A stretch of DNA of 41,018 nt, taken from an uncultured Bacteroidota bacterium (GTDB lineage Bacteria > Bacteroidota > Bacteroidia > Flavobacteriales > Flavobacteriaceae). The stretch spans positions 1 through 41,018 of the forward strand of contig CABYFY010000012.1 of NCBI GenBank assembly GCA_902518355.1, read 5' to 3'. The position numbers were made by a program, and so were the translations under genes. The notes below the pieces were generated by a model. That model saw only the letters and a program-made list of their open reading frames with translations. It was not told where the DNA came from and ran no database searches. Shown here piece after piece: positions 3,703 through 23,068 of the stretch (position 1 is the first letter of the stretch; every line of letters begins with the position of its first letter).

Positions 3703-4425
3703 ATGGAAATGTTAAATTTTATTTTAGCCGGAACAATTGAGCCTGGTGATTTCACTGGATTCACGTTCTTTATCGGCTCTGTTTCTATGTTAGCAGCAAC
3801 TGTGTGGTTTTTAATGCAACACGGTCAAGTTGACAAGAAATTTAAAGATTCAATGCTTGTTGCAGCACTTATTACTGGTATTGCTGCTGTGCATTATTTT
3901 TACATGAGAGAACAATGGACAGCTGGTTTAGGCTCTCCAACTGAATTAAGGTACATCGATTGGATTCTTACTGTACCATTAATGGTAGTTGAATTTGCTC
4001 TCTTAACAGGTGTAGGAATGAGAAAATTATTCTGGGCATCAGTTATAATGTTAGTAACTGGTTACTTCGGTGAATCAGGTGTAACAGGAGTGTTAGACGC
4101 TCAAACTTGGGGTGCTATCTCAGGTCTTGCTTACTTCTGGATGGCATATGAAGTTGGATGTTTATCTATCTTCGGAGGTCCTTCTGGTGCAGTAGGTAAT
4201 GCACTTACTAGTGGTTCTGGAAAAATTCCAGAAGCTGGTAGAATGTTACAATGGTTTGTACTTGTTGGTTGGGCTATTTATCCTATTGGATATATGGCTG
4301 GAACTGAAGGTTGGTACTCTTTCGTAGCTATCGATGAAGGTGCTATGAATATCATTTACAACATAGGTGATGCTATTAACAAAATTGGTTTCGGTATGGC
4401 CGTATGGTATGCTGCTAAGAGCTAA
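3703..4425 (+). CDS. Proteorhodopsin, green-tuned proton pump
   Basis: Retinal-binding seven-helix inner-membrane protein that exports protons in light. At 240 residues it is typical of flavobacterial proteorhodopsins. Key positions are visible: H64 (partner of the acceptor Asp), R83, proton acceptor D86, T90 and proton donor E97 in helix C (a DTE motif, thus H+ rather than Na+ or Cl- pumping), and Schiff-base lysine K227 in DAINKIG of helix G. The spectral tuning site, equivalent to residue 105 of SAR86 proteorhodopsin, is M94; Met or Leu here is known to give green absorption and Gln blue. The start ATG fits the family; a second ATG lies two codons downstream. A strong terminator follows, then blh 84 bases after the stop, giving the common proteorhodopsin-blh pairing. 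Confidence 0.98.
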   Translation: MEMLNFILAGTIEPGDFTGFTFFIGSVSMLAATVWFLMQHGQVDKKFKDSMLVAALITGIAAVHYFYMREQWTAGLGSPTELRYIDWILTVPLMVVEFALLTGVGMRKLFWASVIMLVTGYFGESGVTGVLDAQTWGAISGLAYFWMAYEVGCLSIFGGPSGAVGNALTSGSGKIPEAGRMLQWFVLVGWAIYPIGYMAGTEGWYSFVAIDEGAMNIIYNIGDAINKIGFGMAVWYAAKS

Positions 4426-4450
4426 TTTTAGTTAATTATTAACTAATAAG

Positions 4451-4484
4451 AAAAGGTGAAGATTAATCTTCACCTTTTTTTTTT
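4451..4484 (+). terminator. Strong intrinsic terminator between proteorhodopsin and blh
   Basis: Perfect 12-base-pair inverted repeat: AAAAGGTGAAGA at 4451-4462, TTAA loop, TCTTCACCTTTT at 4467-4478, followed by continuous T to 4484. It ends 25 bases before the blh start codon. No TAnnTTTG box lies between it and blh, so blh would depend on read-through or an unrecognised promoter. Confidence 0.9.
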
Positions 4485-4509
4485 ATATTTATTTTAAATA
4501 AACTAACCA

Positions 4510-5373
4510 ATGGATGTCGTCGTTAAATCAAAACTTGCAGGATTAATTCTTGCTCTCTCAATTATTTTTTTTGGACTAGAGAGTTCCTATTCAATTCTTT
4601 TATTTCTTATTGTTATGTTATCAATTGGAATCCCTCATGGATCGGTTGATCATATAATTGCTTTTATTAATCCTAAAGCAAGAAAATTTGACAGCAAGCT
4701 TATATTTTATACTACCTATCTTTCTTTGATTATTTTTAATATCATTATCTGGGTATTATCACCTTTTCTAGGATTATTAGTTTTTCTAATTATATCCTGT
4801 TATCATTTTGGTGAAACACAGGTGATTGGTTACAATCCAACAGATAATAAGATTTTAAATTTTGTAATTGGTGCAAATATTTTATTGTCTTTATTCCTAA
4901 ATAATATTGTGGAATTACAAGAGATTTTATATATCATTCCACAGTTTGCAACACTTGATTTATCGGCTTTTGATAGTGTTTTCTTCCTACTTATTTCTGT
5001 TGGTATTTTAATGTTATCAATTGTAAATTTTGATATTAAAAGAAAGGTTCCGCTTTACGCAGAAATAACCATACTTTACATGGTCTTTTTCCATACTGAT
5101 TTATTAACCTCTTTTGCTTTATACTTTGGTTTTTGTCATTCATTGCCTATGCTTATGCTAGAGTTTAAGGAATTTAAGACTGAAAATTTCATAAAATTCT
5201 ATTTAAAAACCTTACCATTCACAATACTTTCAATTTTTTTTGGTTTCCTATTATATCAATTTAACAATGATTTACTGACTAGTGATAATTTAATATTATT
5301 TGTTTTTATTGTTATTTCAAGTTTAACCCTTCCTCATGTTTTCATAATGAAGGATTTCGTTAAGGATAAATAA
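4510..5373 (+). CDS. blh: Brp/Blh-family beta-carotene 15,15'-dioxygenase
   Basis: Inner-membrane enzyme that cleaves beta-carotene into two retinals, the chromophore of the neighbouring proteorhodopsin. The 287-residue protein is almost entirely hydrophobic helices (about seven or eight). Conserved His-containing motifs are GIPHGSVDH (H43, H48), CYHFGE (H99), FCHSLP (H210) and LPHVF (H275). The characterised marine 66A03 enzyme uses H21, H78, H188 and H192 as proposed iron ligands; H43, H99 and H210 plausibly match the first three, but the HxxxH pair reads HSLPM here, with Met at position 214. This may be a normal flavobacterial variant. It is separated from proteorhodopsin by a terminator. 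Its start has no visible Shine-Dalgarno. The next gene begins 11 bases after its stop. Confidence 0.93.
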   Translation: MDVVVKSKLAGLILALSIIFFGLESSYSILLFLIVMLSIGIPHGSVDHIIAFINPKARKFDSKLIFYTTYLSLIIFNIIIWVLSPFLGLLVFLIISCYHFGETQVIGYNPTDNKILNFVIGANILLSLFLNNIVELQEILYIIPQFATLDLSAFDSVFFLLISVGILMLSIVNFDIKRKVPLYAEITILYMVFFHTDLLTSFALYFGFCHSLPMLMLEFKEFKTENFIKFYLKTLPFTILSIFFGFLLYQFNNDLLTSDNLILFVFIVISSLTLPHVFIMKDFVKDK

Positions 5374-17576: not shown

Positions 17577-17584
17577 TATATTTG
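17577..17584 (+). promoter_or_regulatory. Bacteroidetes -7 box (TATATTTG) for rpsU
   Basis: Exact TAnnTTTG, 31 bases before the rpsU ATG. A transcript starting just downstream would include the whole Shine-Dalgarno element. No TTG at the expected -33 distance. Confidence 0.6.
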
Positions 17585-17599
17585 CATCAAATTTTAAAG

Positions 17600-17608
17600 A
17601 AAGGAGGT
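17600..17608 (+). promoter_or_regulatory. Perfect Shine-Dalgarno sequence of rpsU
   Basis: AAAGGAGGT, complementary to the 16S rRNA tail, with the GGAGG core ending eight bases before the ATG at 17616. Virtually no other gene here has such a site. In Flavobacteriia bS21 helps hide the anti-Shine-Dalgarno on the ribosome, and a strong site on rpsU lets ribosomes lacking bS21 translate it preferentially (known for Flavobacterium johnsoniae). Confidence 0.92.
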
Positions 17609-17615
17609 TTGTAAT

Positions 17616-17810
17616 ATGCTAATAATACCCATTAAAGACGGAGAAAATATCGACAGAGCACTAAAGCGTTTCAAGAGAAAGTTTGATAAAACTGGAACAA
17701 AGAAATCATTACAAACTAGAAAAGAATTTGTAAAACCTTCAATTAAAAGGAGAGCTGTAATTCAAAAAGCTCAGCACGTACAAAGACTCAGAGACCAAGA
17801 AGATATTTAA
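17616..17810 (+). CDS. rpsU: 30S ribosomal protein bS21
   Basis: Small-subunit protein of 64 basic residues, starting MLIIPIKDGENIDRALKRFK, with the family's Arg/Lys-rich helices and a C-terminus KAQHVQRLRDQ. In Bacteroidetes it sits near the 3' end of 16S rRNA and contributes to sequestering the anti-Shine-Dalgarno. The gene has its own -7 box and a perfect Shine-Dalgarno, consistent with feedback control by bS21 level. It is followed 62 bases later by the tyrosine recombinase gene, a neighbour pairing common in Flavobacteriia. Confidence 0.97.
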   Translation: MLIIPIKDGENIDRALKRFKRKFDKTGTKKSLQTRKEFVKPSIKRRAVIQKAQHVQRLRDQEDI

Positions 17811-17872: not shown

Positions 17873-18763
17873 ATGGAATTCTCTTCATTTCTTGATTACC
17901 TTCAACTTGAGAAAAAATATTCTCAAAAAACTATTATTGCATATAAGAATGATTTAAAATCTTTTCAGGACTTTAATTACAGTAAATTTGACCAAAAGAA
18001 TATAAAGGGAGTAAATTATTCTCAAATTAGATCTTGGATTGTTTCATTAGTTGGAGATAAAATTTCAAATAATTCAATAAATCGAAAGATTTCTTCACTA
18101 AACAGTTATTATAAGTTTTTATTAAAAATAGGTGATATTAAAATAAATCCCTTGATTGAACACAAGGCCTTAAAAACTAAATCAACTATTCAACTGCCCT
18201 TTTCTGAAACTGAAATTTCAAATGTTTTAAACCCTTTAAACTTTGATAAATCATTTGAAGGTCACAGAGACTATCTTATTCTTGAGCTATTATACACAAC
18301 TGGAATTAGAAGACAAGAGCTAATTGATTTAAAAATTCAAAACATCGATTATTCAAATAAAAGGATTAAGGTTTTAGGAAAAAGAAACAAGGAAAGATAT
18401 ATTCCTTTAATTAGCTCAACAATAGAGTCCATTGATAAATATTTAAAATACAGAGACGAGCTTAAAAATATTAAAAGTAACGATAAGCTTTTTTTGACGT
18501 CCAAGGGTAAAACCATATACGATAATCTAGTCTACCGTATCACTAAAAAGTATTTTGCTGGATTTTCAACTAAATCTAAAAAAAGCCCGCATATTTTAAG
18601 ACATTCATTTGCTACTCATCTTTTAAATAATGGTGCCGATTTAAATTCTGTAAAAGATTTACTTGGTCATACCAGTCTTGCTGCAACGCAAGTTTACACT
18701 AATAGATCAATCGAAGAAATCAAAAAAGTTTTCAAAAAAACACATCCCAGAAATAAGGGTTAA
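17873..18763 (+). CDS. XerC/XerD-type tyrosine recombinase
   Basis: Site-specific recombinase expected to resolve chromosome dimers at dif. The 296-residue protein has the SAM-like core-binding N-domain (about 1-95) and a complete catalytic set: R146 in TGIRRQEL, K170 in GKRNKER, H240 and R243 in HILRHSFATHL, H266 in LLGHTSL and nucleophile Y275 in YTNRS. Length and the location beside rpsU fit the housekeeping recombinase rather than an element integrase; XerC versus XerD cannot be settled from this alone. No recognisable dif site was found nearby. In many relatives an hpf/raiA gene follows; here only 110 bases separate it from the tRNA cluster. Confidence 0.93.
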   Translation: MEFSSFLDYLQLEKKYSQKTIIAYKNDLKSFQDFNYSKFDQKNIKGVNYSQIRSWIVSLVGDKISNNSINRKISSLNSYYKFLLKIGDIKINPLIEHKALKTKSTIQLPFSETEISNVLNPLNFDKSFEGHRDYLILELLYTTGIRRQELIDLKIQNIDYSNKRIKVLGKRNKERYIPLISSTIESIDKYLKYRDELKNIKSNDKLFLTSKGKTIYDNLVYRITKKYFAGFSTKSKKSPHILRHSFATHLLNNGADLNSVKDLLGHTSLAATQVYTNRSIEEIKKVFKKTHPRNKG

Positions 18764-18803
18764 CATAAGTTTGTTTTCTGATTAAAAAAAAATATAATTT
18801 GTT

Positions 18804-18832
18804 TTGTTTGAAAAAATAAATATTTACATTTG
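18804..18832 (+). promoter_or_regulatory. Promoter of the tRNA cluster (TTG-18-TACATTTG)
   Basis: TTG at 18804-18806 and exact -7 box TACATTTG at 18825-18832, 18 bases apart, close to the Bacteroidetes consensus. Expected start of transcription lies around 18837-18840, at the foot of a hairpin. Confidence 0.72.
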
Positions 18833-18836
18833 CAGT

Positions 18837-18859
18837 CCGCTCAAAGCGGGCTTTTTTTT
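18837..18859 (+). terminator. Terminator-like hairpin in the tRNA leader
   Basis: Stem CCGCT / AGCGG with CAA loop (18837-18849), then GC and eight T to 18859, placed immediately after the predicted transcription start and 14 bases before the first tRNA. The short stem could be an attenuator, a 5' protective hairpin or simply a processing signal. Confidence 0.45.
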
Positions 18860-18873
18860 GAAAAAAAGTGTAA

Positions 18874-18947
18874 GCCGATGTAGCTCAGCTGGCTAGAGCA
18901 GCTGATTTGTAATCAGCAGGTCGTGGGTTCGAGTCCCTCCATCGGCT
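18874..18947 (+). tRNA. tRNA-Thr (anticodon UGU)
   Basis: Full cloverleaf: acceptor GCCGATG / CATCGGC, D-arm TAGCTCAGCTGGCTAGAGCA, anticodon stem GCTGA/TCAGC with loop TTTGTAA (anticodon TGT), T-loop GGTTCGAGTCC. The CCA end is not encoded. First of a four-tRNA run conserved upstream of tuf in Bacteroidetes. Confidence 0.97.
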
Positions 18948-19424: not shown

Positions 19425-19610
19425 TTATTTTTTTGAGTTATAGTCTTTACGTCTTTGACGAATTGCAATTGCAAATAGTAGAATTGTTCCTGGCCAATGA
19501 GCAGTGTATTGAGCCTCAGCTGTATTACCTAGTAATCCTAAACTTACAGAGTAAACAAGGCATATAAAGGCTAAAATTATAGGGTAGTAAACTTCTAATA
19601 TCTTTTTCAT
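19425..19610 (-). CDS. Small two-helix membrane protein, unknown function
   Basis: Not recognised. 61 residues with two predicted membrane helices (about 9-28 and 41-52) joined by GNTAEAQYTAHWPG, and a basic C-terminal tail RQRRKDYNSKK. Its ATG lies one base after the stop of the DoxX-like gene, and the next small gene starts three bases after its own stop, so it belongs to the same transcript. Possibly an accessory subunit of the DoxX-like protein; inference from position only. Confidence 0.6.
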   Translation of the reverse strand: MKKILEVYYPIILAFICLVYSVSLGLLGNTAEAQYTAHWPGTILLFAIAIRQRRKDYNSKK

Positions 19611-19611
19611 T

Positions 19612-20022
19612 TTAATTTGATTTTAAATAACTCCTACCTATAATAAGAGCAGCAGTTATGATTATTATATTTTTTATTATGTATTGACCTTCGAGAGTTG
19701 GCAACAACGGATTTCCATTTTGAAATGTAATATCTGGTAATATTACCAGAGGAAGGAATGTTCCAGTCATTTGTAAAAACATTAAAATTACCGCGGCTAA
19801 AGTTGTTTTTTTATTTAAAAAACAAATACCTATTGCCATCTCCCAGTATCCGATCACTATTGACCATGTCTTAGCAGATAAAAACGGCATCCAAAAAACT
19901 GTATCAATAATTAGTTCTGTTGCTGGAGACACATCAAGTACCTTTAGTATTCCAAACCAAAAGAAAATGATAAATAGAGGAATCCTAATTAAGTAGTCAT
20001 TTGTGTTAAATCTCTTTAACAT
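19612..20022 (-). CDS. DoxX/YkgB-like integral membrane protein
   Basis: 136-residue inner-membrane protein with four hydrophobic helices, resembling the DoxX-like superfamily: RIPLFIIFFWFGILKVLDVSPA near 13-34, GYWEMAIGICFL near 58-69, a helix around MFLQMTGTFLPLVILP and GQYIIKNIIIITAALII at the end. Family members are linked to quinone/redox and oxidative-stress functions, but no activity can be assigned here. It starts one base after the stop of the flavodoxin-fold reductase, which supports a shared redox role. Confidence 0.75.
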   Translation of the reverse strand: MLKRFNTNDYLIRIPLFIIFFWFGILKVLDVSPATELIIDTVFWMPFLSAKTWSIVIGYWEMAIGICFLNKKTTLAAVILMFLQMTGTFLPLVILPDITFQNGNPLLPTLEGQYIIKNIIIITAALIIGRSYLKSN

Positions 20023-20023
20023 G

Positions 20024-20638
20024 TCAATTATTTTGTAAAGCTGGCTTATGGCTAAAAATATTTTTTGTTCTTAAATCATTTCTGATATCATTAAGAACCA
20101 CTGATAAATATTTTTTTCTTTTTTTATCACTAACAAAAGGCACTGACCAAAATTGTTTTGTTTTAAACCAAAGGGATAATTTCCATCCGAAAACAAAAGA
20201 ATATACACCCATAACTAACCTTAACTTAACCGAATTAAAGTAAAGCGTTTTAACAGGCAGGGCAGGTGCGCCGTGTGTTATGTATGTGCGAACTTTTTTA
20301 TCTTTTAAAAATGGTTTTGGAAATGCATAAGTTTTTGTAACATTAACAAATTTGTAAGCAAATCCAGGGGTAAGTACTTCATCAAAAAAAACTTCCATTC
20401 TTGGCGTTAATCTAAACCACCAAACAGGTGATATAATATATATTCTATCACTCCACAATACTAGATTTTTATACTTTTCAATTAGCTTTGTTCGAGGCCT
20501 AGAAAAACTATCCCTGTATAAGTCAATAACTTCCAACTCTTGATTGGACTTATTAATCTCATTAAAAATCGTTTTGAAGATTCCATTATAGCAAAATGAC
20601 TTTTTGTAAGGGTGTCCGATAATAATTAAGTTTTTCAT
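20024..20638 (-). CDS. Flavodoxin-fold NAD(P)H:quinone oxidoreductase (KefF/MdaB-like)
   Basis: 204-residue flavin reductase expected to carry out two-electron reduction of quinones. The N-terminus KNLIIIGHPYKKSFCYNGIF has the FMN/FAD phosphate-binding start of this family; the middle shows LWSDRIYIISPVWWFRLTPRMEVFFDEVLTPGFAY, the PxWW..P motif that packs on the flavin, and then YITHGAP. Slightly shorter at the C-terminus than KefF/NQO relatives. First gene of the four-gene minus-strand run, divergent from the duplicated-ABM lipoprotein across 134 bases. No clean TAnnTTTG box; GATATTTG at about 20660 is one mismatch away. Confidence 0.85.
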   Translation of the reverse strand: MKNLIIIGHPYKKSFCYNGIFKTIFNEINKSNQELEVIDLYRDSFSRPRTKLIEKYKNLVLWSDRIYIISPVWWFRLTPRMEVFFDEVLTPGFAYKFVNVTKTYAFPKPFLKDKKVRTYITHGAPALPVKTLYFNSVKLRLVMGVYSFVFGWKLSLWFKTKQFWSVPFVSDKKRKKYLSVVLNDIRNDLRTKNIFSHKPALQNN

Positions 20639-20772
20639 TTAAACGTTTTTACATTCAAATATCAAATCATGTGCCACTGTAAAATATTAATACCCCAATT
20701 TTTAACATAGTTTGTTTTTTATTGTTAAATTGTATTAATTATTAACTTATTATAATCCTTAAAACTTAAACA

Positions 20773-21528
20773 ATGAAAAAAATTTTAGTATTAGCTTGTA
20801 TCGTTTCACTATTCAGTTGTAAAAATTCAACCTCTAATGATGAAACTTCGATTTATGCTGACGAGACTGTGTTGATTGTAAACTACCAAATTGAAAATAT
20901 GACTATGGATGAGCATGCTGAATTAGGTAGTGCTGTGGCTCCTAACTTCACCTCTGAAAATGTTACAGGTCTTTTAGGAAAGTCTTTTGTTGGAGATGCA
21001 GATAGAGGTGTTTTTGGAGGAGTTTATTATTTTTCAGATTCTGAATCAGTTAATATTTTTCTAGAATCAGATCTTTGGAAGGGTGTAGTTGCACATCCAA
21101 ATCTTGTCAATTTTAAAACAGATATCTTTAGAACTTTTGACGGTACCGAATTAGCAAATGGAAATCATTCAATGAGAAAGACATCATCAGATGCTTTAGA
21201 TGCCGATGGTTTACATATTTTGGTTGTAAATTATACCAATGAGGTTAATCCATCTGACGAGGAAATGTCCAGTCAGGTAAAGCAATATGCACCTGTATTC
21301 AGTAACGATAATTTTCCAGGTATGATCGGTAAAACTATGATAAATAGCATTGACGGAAATATTTACGGAGGAGTCTACTATTTTACAAGTAGGACTGCCA
21401 TTAATGATTATTTTGGATCAGACCTTTGGACTGGTTTTGAAGGTGATAATAACACTAATGTATACAAAAAAGATATTTATAGTGTTGCTCCAATCTCAGC
21501 AATTTCAAACGGAGTTCCAGTACTTTAA
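20773..21528 (+). CDS. Lipoprotein with two tandem YdhR/ABM-like domains
   Basis: Predicted lipoprotein: signal peptide 1-15 and lipobox LFSC with acylated C16. The rest is two copies of one roughly 88-residue unit: copy A about 33-120 and copy B about 149-237, sharing VNY (36-38, 152-154), G(L/M)(L/I)GK (66-70, 183-187), an identical GGVYYF (82-87, 199-204), an identical SDLW (99-102, 216-219) and a closing KxDI(F/Y). The pattern resembles YdhR-type antibiotic-biosynthesis-monooxygenase (dimeric alpha-beta barrel) proteins, where GG(I/V)Y precedes a final helix; the tandem pair would form an internal dimer. Function unknown. Divergent from a quinone reductase gene, which suggests but does not prove a quinone-related role. 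Confidence 0.72.
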   Translation: MKKILVLACIVSLFSCKNSTSNDETSIYADETVLIVNYQIENMTMDEHAELGSAVAPNFTSENVTGLLGKSFVGDADRGVFGGVYYFSDSESVNIFLESDLWKGVVAHPNLVNFKTDIFRTFDGTELANGNHSMRKTSSDALDADGLHILVVNYTNEVNPSDEEMSSQVKQYAPVFSNDNFPGMIGKTMINSIDGNIYGGVYYFTSRTAINDYFGSDLWTGFEGDNNTNVYKKDIYSVAPISAISNGVPVL

Positions 21529-21582
21529 GTTATTTAATATCAATTCTACTCATAACGGCACAAATATTGTAAGTGTCTGATT

Positions 21583-22443
21583 ATGAATAGGATTGAAAAT
21601 TTACACTCGAATGTTTTTTCTCAAAGAAATGTAGAGTTATTTGAGAAAAATATTATGTTTTTGGCTGTTGGTGGTTTTATAATTCACCTGCTGTTGATAT
21701 TCTTTGAAAATTATTACGGAGTAGACATATTTTCGTCAAAAACTAACTTATCAAGCAATCCTATATCCGCCTTATACACCCCTTTTACTTTTATTCTGGT
21801 ATATGAGGCATTTTTACTTATATATTATCTACCTAGATCTTTTACTACATCAATTGCCAAAGAGTTTGAAATTATTTCATTGGTATTGATTAGAAAAATA
21901 TTTAAAGATATTCCAGAAATTAGCTTAGAGAGTTCAACTATTTTTAATGAAAATAATATGCAGTTACTATATGATTTATTAGCCGTAATAGTGATTTTCT
22001 ATCTGATTTATTTGTTTAAAAAAACATGGGTTAATACCCTAAAGCGCAAAACAAATAAAAACTTAAAAAAGTTCATAAACTACAAAAAACTTATGTCAAT
22101 ACTTTTAGTTCCGACTCTAATAGTTTTATGTTTTATTAATTTTTATGAATGGATAATTCAGGTGTTTATTTCTGAATCCTATACGGAAAATCTTAACGGA
22201 GTTTTCTTTATTGATTTCTTCACGATCTTAATTTTAGTCGATGTTTTTATTCTACTTATCTCTTTCCAATACACCGAAAGGTATTCGCAATTAATAAGAA
22301 ACACTGGCTTCATTATCTCCACAATTTTACTTAGACTTTCCTTTAGCGCAGAAGGTTTATATAGTATTATGTTAACCATTTTGGGTGTTGTTTTTGGGTT
22401 GATAATCCTTATGATATACAAATTGGCTGAAGAAAATTATTAG
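21583..22443 (+). CDS. Polytopic membrane protein, unknown function
   Basis: 286 residues with about seven hydrophobic helices: around 24-42, 65-86, 128-146, 171-189, 210-227, 238-252 and 258-280. A conserved-looking segment EFEIISLVLIRKIFKDI lies at 89-105, reminiscent of unnamed Bacteroidetes membrane proteins; no known catalytic motif is visible. It begins 54 bases after the lipoprotein stop and ends seven bases before the glycosylase gene, so co-transcription with at least the latter is likely. I do not recognise a function. Confidence 0.72.
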   Translation: MNRIENLHSNVFSQRNVELFEKNIMFLAVGGFIIHLLLIFFENYYGVDIFSSKTNLSSNPISALYTPFTFILVYEAFLLIYYLPRSFTTSIAKEFEIISLVLIRKIFKDIPEISLESSTIFNENNMQLLYDLLAVIVIFYLIYLFKKTWVNTLKRKTNKNLKKFINYKKLMSILLVPTLIVLCFINFYEWIIQVFISESYTENLNGVFFIDFFTILILVDVFILLISFQYTERYSQLIRNTGFIISTILLRLSFSAEGLYSIMLTILGVVFGLIILMIYKLAEENY

Positions 22444-22450
22444 AAATTCC

Positions 22451-23068
22451 ATGAAAATAGTTCTTGAAAGGGCATACAAGCATTTGTCCAATGACAAAAT
22501 AATGCATTTCTTAATTAATAAATTTCAGTATAAAATTGATTGGGGTAACAGATATAATGCAAACCATGCTCTATCAATTGCTAATTTAATTATTGAACAG
22601 CAAATTAGCTTCAAGGCAGCCATCACTGTCAAAAAAAGATTTTCAAAATTAACTGACGGAAAAACCTCTGAAGAAATTATTCAAATGACTAATCAAGAAT
22701 TGCAATCAATCGGTATTTCTTACAGAAAAGCTGACTACATAAAAAATGTTTTTAATTTTTTTAGTACTCATGACGCAGATTTTGAATTCATGACCGATAA
22801 TGATGTAATTGATTTCTTATGTTCAATAAAGGGAGTTGGTGAATGGACAGCTCAAATGTTTTTAATTTTCAATTTATTTAGAAATGACATCTTTTCTCCA
22901 AAGGATTTAGCCTTAATAAATAGTATCAAAAAAAACTATTCACTTGATAAAGTAGATAAAAACGAAATACAAAAATTAACATGCAACTGGAGTCCTTATA
23001 ATTCAATTGCATGTCTTTTACTTTGGGAATCTATTGAAAACCAGGTTTTTTTTTCAGATTATAACTAG
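22451..23068 (+). CDS. AlkA-type DNA-3-methyladenine glycosylase II
   Basis: Base-excision repair enzyme removing alkylated bases. The 205-residue HhH-GPD protein has the AlkA start motif NLIIEQQIS near 46-53, a helix-hairpin-helix at about 122-140 (LCSIKGVGEWTAQMFL) and the catalytic aspartate D152 in SPKDLAL, the place of D238 in E. coli AlkA. It lacks the N-terminal TBP-like domain of E. coli AlkA, like many bacterial homologues. Seven bases downstream of the membrane-protein gene; tuf follows 147 bases later with its own promoter. Confidence 0.87.
   Translation: MKIVLERAYKHLSNDKIMHFLINKFQYKIDWGNRYNANHALSIANLIIEQQISFKAAITVKKRFSKLTDGKTSEEIIQMTNQELQSIGISYRKADYIKNVFNFFSTHDADFEFMTDNDVIDFLCSIKGVGEWTAQMFLIFNLFRNDIFSPKDLALINSIKKNYSLDKVDKNEIQKLTCNWSPYNSIACLLLWESIENQVFFSDYN

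Follow-up and report, generated by a model that had tools for sequence, protein, structure and literature searches.

In this uncultured member of the Flavobacteriaceae, ribosomal protein bS21 very probably controls the translation of its own gene, rpsU, by feedback exerted through an extended Shine-Dalgarno sequence that stands alone among the gene starts sampled from its genome. The window, i.e., the whole 41,018-nucleotide stretch of DNA that was analyzed, carries rpsU on the forward strand at positions 17616 to 17810; the gene encodes 64 residues (PF01165, E = 1.3e-15), of which residues 1 to 61 align with the bS21 of structure entry 7JIL (E = 5.4e-24), which we take to be the Flavobacterium johnsoniae ribosome. 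Upstream on the same strand, positions 17598 to 17608 (AGAAAGGAGGT) form 11 contiguous Watson-Crick pairs with positions 1534 to 1544 of the 16S rRNA (tail segment 1532 to 1544), and the duplex with the 16S tail of the same genome, ACACCUCCUUUCU, was computed at -17.5 kcal/mol (ViennaRNA duplexfold). The original prediction had placed a perfect Shine-Dalgarno sequence before rpsU; this was borne out and even understated, as the complementarity is longer (11 bp) than the core AAAGGAGGT, located at 17600 to 17608 and 7 nt 5' of the ATG at 17616. The rpsU pairing lies below the published cutoff of -13 (PMC9976891), with energies calculated by ViennaRNA here and by free_scan in that work, and its -17.5 over 11 bp compares with a published rpsU range of -14 to -21 over 9 to 13 bp (PMC9976891). 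A tyrosine recombinase gene of the XerC-like type follows downstream of rpsU on the forward strand (17873 to 18763) and is mentioned as context, outside the putative switch.

The 16S rRNA gene of this genome lies on contig C8, ends in ...GGCTGGAACACCTCCTTTCTAGAG, and keeps the canonical anti-Shine-Dalgarno motif CCUCC (GGAACACCTCCTTTCT). CCTCC is present in all eight 16S genes read from the genus, including this one, and was found by pattern match in two further members (G055 and G160). Its retention at the 3' end, for which a check had been proposed, leaves the autoregulation reading standing; the lack of CCUCC in Flavobacteriia has already been tabulated (PMC10783764). The genus set comprises 21 genomes, all of them incomplete, of which 17 (this one included) gave rpsU and 4 gave none. 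All 17 leaders pair at -17.0 or stronger, and the site differs from that of the window by one base in three of them, always A to G opposite U. At positions 17577 to 17584 of the forward strand, starting 39 nt before the ATG, the promoter-like sequence TATATTTG fits the -7 element of Bacteroidota promoters, whose consensus is TAnnTTTG, and TAnnTTTG recurs 39 to 41 nt 5' of the ATG at 17 of 17 genus loci, the window's own included. From this distance, a leader of roughly 25 to 28 nt is predicted; the native rpsU leader of F. johnsoniae measures 25 nt (PMC9976891). Special folding of the leader was not detected (z = +0.94), and control by a stem-loop is unsupported.

The standing of the rpsU site within the assembly, which spans 1.42 Mb and is about 80% complete, was assessed in a sample made up of the window plus 20 segments of 20 kb each, together 441 kb of the 1.42 Mb, in which crude open reading frame (ORF) calls yielded 385 ORFs of 60 amino acids or more, each scored at one chosen start. 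Among these starts rpsU is the clear winner: at -17.5 it is the sole one at or below -12, the next best reaching -11.5, or -13.1 if each ORF may use any in-frame start codon close to its 5' end. Judged by an exponential fit to the weak scores, chance alone would yield a strongest start of about -12.5, and it would produce the 11-mer about 2e-4 times in the sample. This ranking is among 385 sampled ORFs, whereas the criterion of PMC9976891 ranks ribosomal protein genes. Sites at or below -6 numbered 19 at starts versus 35 in a mock region 25 to 45 nt upstream, where one hit fell at or below -13 and none at -14; strong sites are thus rarer at starts, in agreement with the avoidance reported for Flavobacteriales (PMC9976891). 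The starts of neighboring genes scored -0.1 (tuf), -2.4 (rplL), +1.6 (rpoB), and -0.9 (rpoC), and the strongest of 23 other window genes checked were two at -4.4, so that the original prediction was right in describing tuf, rplL, and rpoB as devoid of a strong site.

Equally strong sites elsewhere, which the same prediction had proposed to scan for, were absent from the 385-ORF sample, and a genome-wide pattern scan yielded no other clear gene start. The pattern AAGGAGG N3-12 ATG (exact motif, ATG only) gave 21 matches at 17 sites, showing no enrichment as a bare count (21 versus 31), and the 16 sites other than rpsU all fall inside longer open frames, on either strand. One of these matches (contig C4, position 94351) opens 319 codons; because the same frame stays open for 136 codons further upstream, we take it as internal and not as a gene start, an assignment that is not beyond doubt. 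The shorter pattern GGAGG N3-10 ATG is uninformative by itself, since its 185 matches compare with 152 for the reversed control.

A feedback model credited to Jha et al. in 2021 and shown experimentally in F. johnsoniae by McNutt et al. in 2023 (PMC9976891) would account for this arrangement. In replete 30S subunits, the 16S tail with its anti-Shine-Dalgarno would sit in a pocket built by bS21, bS18, and bS6, and with the tail sequestered, ordinary mRNAs would initiate without the anti-Shine-Dalgarno. In 30S subunits devoid of bS21, the tail would be free to pair over 11 bp with the rpsU leader, and such subunits would prefer rpsU mRNA; bS21 would then be made until the subunits were replete and sequestration was restored. 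The sequences themselves show the gene, its 11-bp match to the 16S tail of the same genome, its outlier rank, its conservation, and substitutions that preserve pairing. We infer the existence of the pocket, the choice of rpsU mRNA by ribosomes lacking bS21, and the feedback loop, and with them the regulation itself in this organism, from F. johnsoniae, in which depletion or mutation of bS21 raises an rpsU'-gfp reporter 3- to 4-fold and leaves reporters lacking a Shine-Dalgarno sequence nearly unchanged (PMC9976891). Autoregulation by bS21 as originally predicted, which is the same model as shown in F. johnsoniae, is in this sense supported for the present genome. Both the mechanism and its spread are already in print, the feedback being predicted for about 80% of Flavobacteriales in a set of 200 (PMC9976891), and this genome is a further case; it is a clean one, in which the composition of the ribosome may decide which mRNA is read.

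The likeness to F. johnsoniae extends to a single-gene extended site, a canonical 16S tail, a short predicted leader, and the lack of a strong site on rplL and on the rpsR (bS18) of relatives. Such a site was found in none of the 15 rpsR loci of the genus (-0.7 to -2.0), which came from 15 of the 21 genomes, the window's own being among the six that gave none. The bS18 protein was not found in this incomplete assembly (about 80%) and was found in relatives, that of G162 aligning end to end with the bS18 of 7JIL (E = 5.3e-51). Two differences stand against this likeness: residue 54 of bS21 is His instead of Tyr in the window, and the genome is small, in a family whose small genomes are often without the full site.

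The family sample comprised one genome per genus and two for the window's genus. Of the 144 family genomes with bS21, 134 were examined and 112 gave a canonical copy; the other 22 gave the second paralogue only (17 genomes), the paralogue plus a copy of unclear type (2 genomes), or unclear copies only (3 genomes). Loci of unclear bS21 type (7 of 151) were excluded, 3 with a strong site and 4 without, among the latter those of G035 and G022. Scored against the 16S tail of the window, the canonical rpsU site reaches -13 or below in 105 of the 112 genomes, namely in 93 of 93 larger than 2.35 Mb versus 12 of 19 at or below 2.35 Mb (Fisher P = 1.4e-6, relatedness ignored). The seven that fall short of -13 include two partial sites (-9.9 and -11.4), one weak site (-6.3), and four with none (-1.3 to -2.2); some small-genome relatives therefore appear, from their leaders, to have lost the site, a term that fits only these last four. 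With 7 of 112 canonical copies short of the threshold, some relatives seem able to do without the circuit. In the window's genus, the site persists despite the small genome.

Residue 54 is encoded by CAC (His) at positions 17775 to 17777 of the forward strand and aligns with Tyr54 of F. johnsoniae; that tyrosine stacks on A1534 of the 16S rRNA, and its replacement alone (Y54A) raises rpsU'-gfp 3-fold in that organism (PMC9976891). Histidine is not tyrosine, yet it still offers a ring that could stack on A1534. The effect of Y54A in F. johnsoniae together with His54 here suggests that sequestration might be weaker in this organism, and a variant of the feedback explanation, not exclusive with it, would hold that His54 grips the 16S tail less than Tyr54 does, so that the switch is retuned toward higher basal translation of rpsU. 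We regard such retuning as possible but somewhat doubtful. It would fit the distribution of residue 54 in the genus, His in 13 of 17 loci (the window's own included) and Tyr in 4 of 17, with at least three changes between the two on a tree of 25 rpsU-xerC loci, 21 of which are different, several probably being the same genome under two names. It would also fit the family sample, in which the only copies without Tyr54 outside the genus, among 112 canonical ones, belong to three small genomes, all without the site. Sites short of -13 accompany 3 of the 5 non-Tyr54 copies versus 4 of the other 107 (Fisher P = 0.0015, with few rows and relatedness ignored), the remaining two non-Tyr54 rows being the window's genus, where the site is kept; this association may serve as a lead only. 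On the other hand, the site is equally strong in the genus with His as with Tyr, and Chen et al., who had already noted a few His54 cases, regard the ring as conserved for stacking (PMC9723584).

A strong ribosome-binding site could also boost rpsU constitutively, with no feedback at all, which we consider improbable. Sequence alone cannot separate feedback from strength, and with His54 the 16S tail could be more accessible in every ribosome, which would suit a constitutive role; however, tuf, rplL, and rpoB, whose products are presumably needed in large amounts, have no such site. Moreover, a strong site added to tuf somewhat lowered its expression in wild-type F. johnsoniae, and compared with this level, the modified tuf gave more output when bS21 was mutated or depleted (PMC9976891), a behavior that speaks against a constitutive role.

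Translational feedback through the 16S tail is also favored by the pattern of substitutions in the site. We scored 179 distinct leaders from named relatives and further family and genus members against the 16S tail of the window, because most of their own tails are unread. At positions 2 to 10 of the 11-mer, 102 of 103 substitutions put G in place of A opposite U and so retain a G-U pair, and the remaining one, in a small genome, is a G-to-A change that breaks a pair. These substitutions are counted per leader, and most of them trace to a single change at position 4 that 85 leaders have in common; per distinct 11-mer, the figures are 14 versus 1. The end positions, excluded from the count, vary more freely and do take nonpairing bases, with C or U at position 1 in 29 of 179 leaders and G or A at position 11 in 3 of 179. 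A further 7 of 186 leaders were skipped since their register scores were too low, one with a run of N and six from small genomes without the full site, a procedure that by design removes leaders that have lost the site. One-sided interior changes of this kind are predicted by pairing with 16S rRNA and not by a DNA-binding site. Conservation of the purine block for a reason at the DNA level, as a promoter or operator, is hence barely credible even though the block adjoins the conserved promoter-like element, as its interior changes nearly all keep pairing, compensatory changes are cited for Chryseobacterium-type organisms with another anti-Shine-Dalgarno (PMC9976891, PMC8710568), and TAnnTTTG is still present in 8 of 8 small-genome leaders without the full site.

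These eight small genomes are the seven of the 112 together with G035, a draft genome of 1.6 Mb (L314 / L322) in which rpsU lies beside an xerC-like gene and has no site (+0.7), and whose bS21 has an altered C terminus. The full-length 16S match of G035 ends in GGAATATATCTTTTCT, and comparison of its tail AUAUAUCUUUUCU with that of the window, ACACCUCCUUUCU, makes its anti-Shine-Dalgarno look eroded; scored against this tail of its own, the leader does not pair (+0.7). The 16S and rpsU genes of G035 are on different contigs, and wrong binning is possible. With the 16S tail readable in 1 of the 8 genomes, any connection of site loss with erosion of the tail amounts to one case and sets one draft genome against three, the small family genomes with both a site and a readable tail being canonical in 3 of 3 cases (G064, G099, and G060), besides the window's genus.

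Feedback by bS21 might, tentatively, be viewed in a wider frame, in which the switch mainly keeps the anti-Shine-Dalgarno in place and genome streamlining dismantles it: Tyr54 would give way, the rpsU site would then decay, and the 16S tail would finally erode. In the same speculative scheme, taken as a whole, the window's genus would represent an early stage or a retuned balance and G035 the end. A search of titles and abstracts, with supplements and subscription papers outside its scope, returned none on loss of the site with streamlining. The family survey makes it testable why bacteria that ignore Shine-Dalgarno sequences keep an anti-Shine-Dalgarno, as small-genome relatives in which the full site is missing, including one whose 16S tail looks eroded, would be natural knock-outs for this question; the side observation on site loss in small genomes could grow.

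Many larger Flavobacteriaceae have a second bS21 (L172-L289, e.g., L325), mostly of the MLKII..KHRNxKVMQNLR type. None of its 32 loci reaches -13, the best scoring -10.2, and in the 13 genomes from which both copies were obtained, only the canonical one of the two carries the strong site. Judged by these leaders, the second bS21 could feed ribosomes outside the loop. It was not found in the incomplete genome of the window, which gave one bS21 match. PMC9976891 names bacteria with extra bS21 copies, none of them Bacteroidota, and the search of titles and abstracts, again apart from supplements and subscription papers, returned none on a site-less second bS21 of Flavobacteriaceae. In G071 (L325), a sigma-70 gene ends 37 nt 5' of the second paralogue; a conserved palindrome-like block before the paralogue was considered as an operator and rejected, being in G071 the coding end of the sigma-70 gene. 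Pattern counts of the sigma-70 neighborhood over the 32 loci were 0, which missed even G071, and 2, which was too strict, and they provide no frequency.

The bS21 genes of Bacteroidota phages (PMC9723584) share the protein family with the rpsU of the window and differ in that, by their leader scores, they seem to stand outside the host's loop. Our viral set contains eight genes from five of six matched phage records, and against the 16S tail of the window, which may not be that of the hosts, seven of the eight leaders scored +2.0 to -5.1. Unlike these seven, the gene at L329 (LR756501.1, a phage record of 735 kb) is preceded by a Shine-Dalgarno sequence of moderate strength (-12.1). Position 54 of phage bS21 is Tyr in 54 of 61 sequences and another ring residue in the other 7 (Chen et al. 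2022, PMC9723584).

Several family members (e.g., G010, G142, and G143) carry the hibernation factor gene hpf (PF02482) shortly downstream of rpsU. None of the 21 incomplete genomes of the genus gave a match to hpf (the corresponding region of the window is 18763 to 18874), versus 134 of 149 genomes in the family sample; hpf was also unmatched in 13 other sampled genomes, 9 of them of 2.3 Mb or smaller. Elsewhere in the window, positions 3703 to 5373 hold a gene resembling bacteriorhodopsin (PF01036) and, after it, one resembling beta-carotene dioxygenase (PF15461). This pair agrees with the earlier remark that this lineage bears proteorhodopsin; the claim that the sequence extends the feedback model to such a lineage holds in a modest sense, because PMC9976891 already predicts the circuit for some 80% of Flavobacteriales. 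Between the tRNA cluster and tuf (19425 to 23068), the window carries flavodoxin-like, ydhR-like, and HhH-GPD DNA-repair-like genes.
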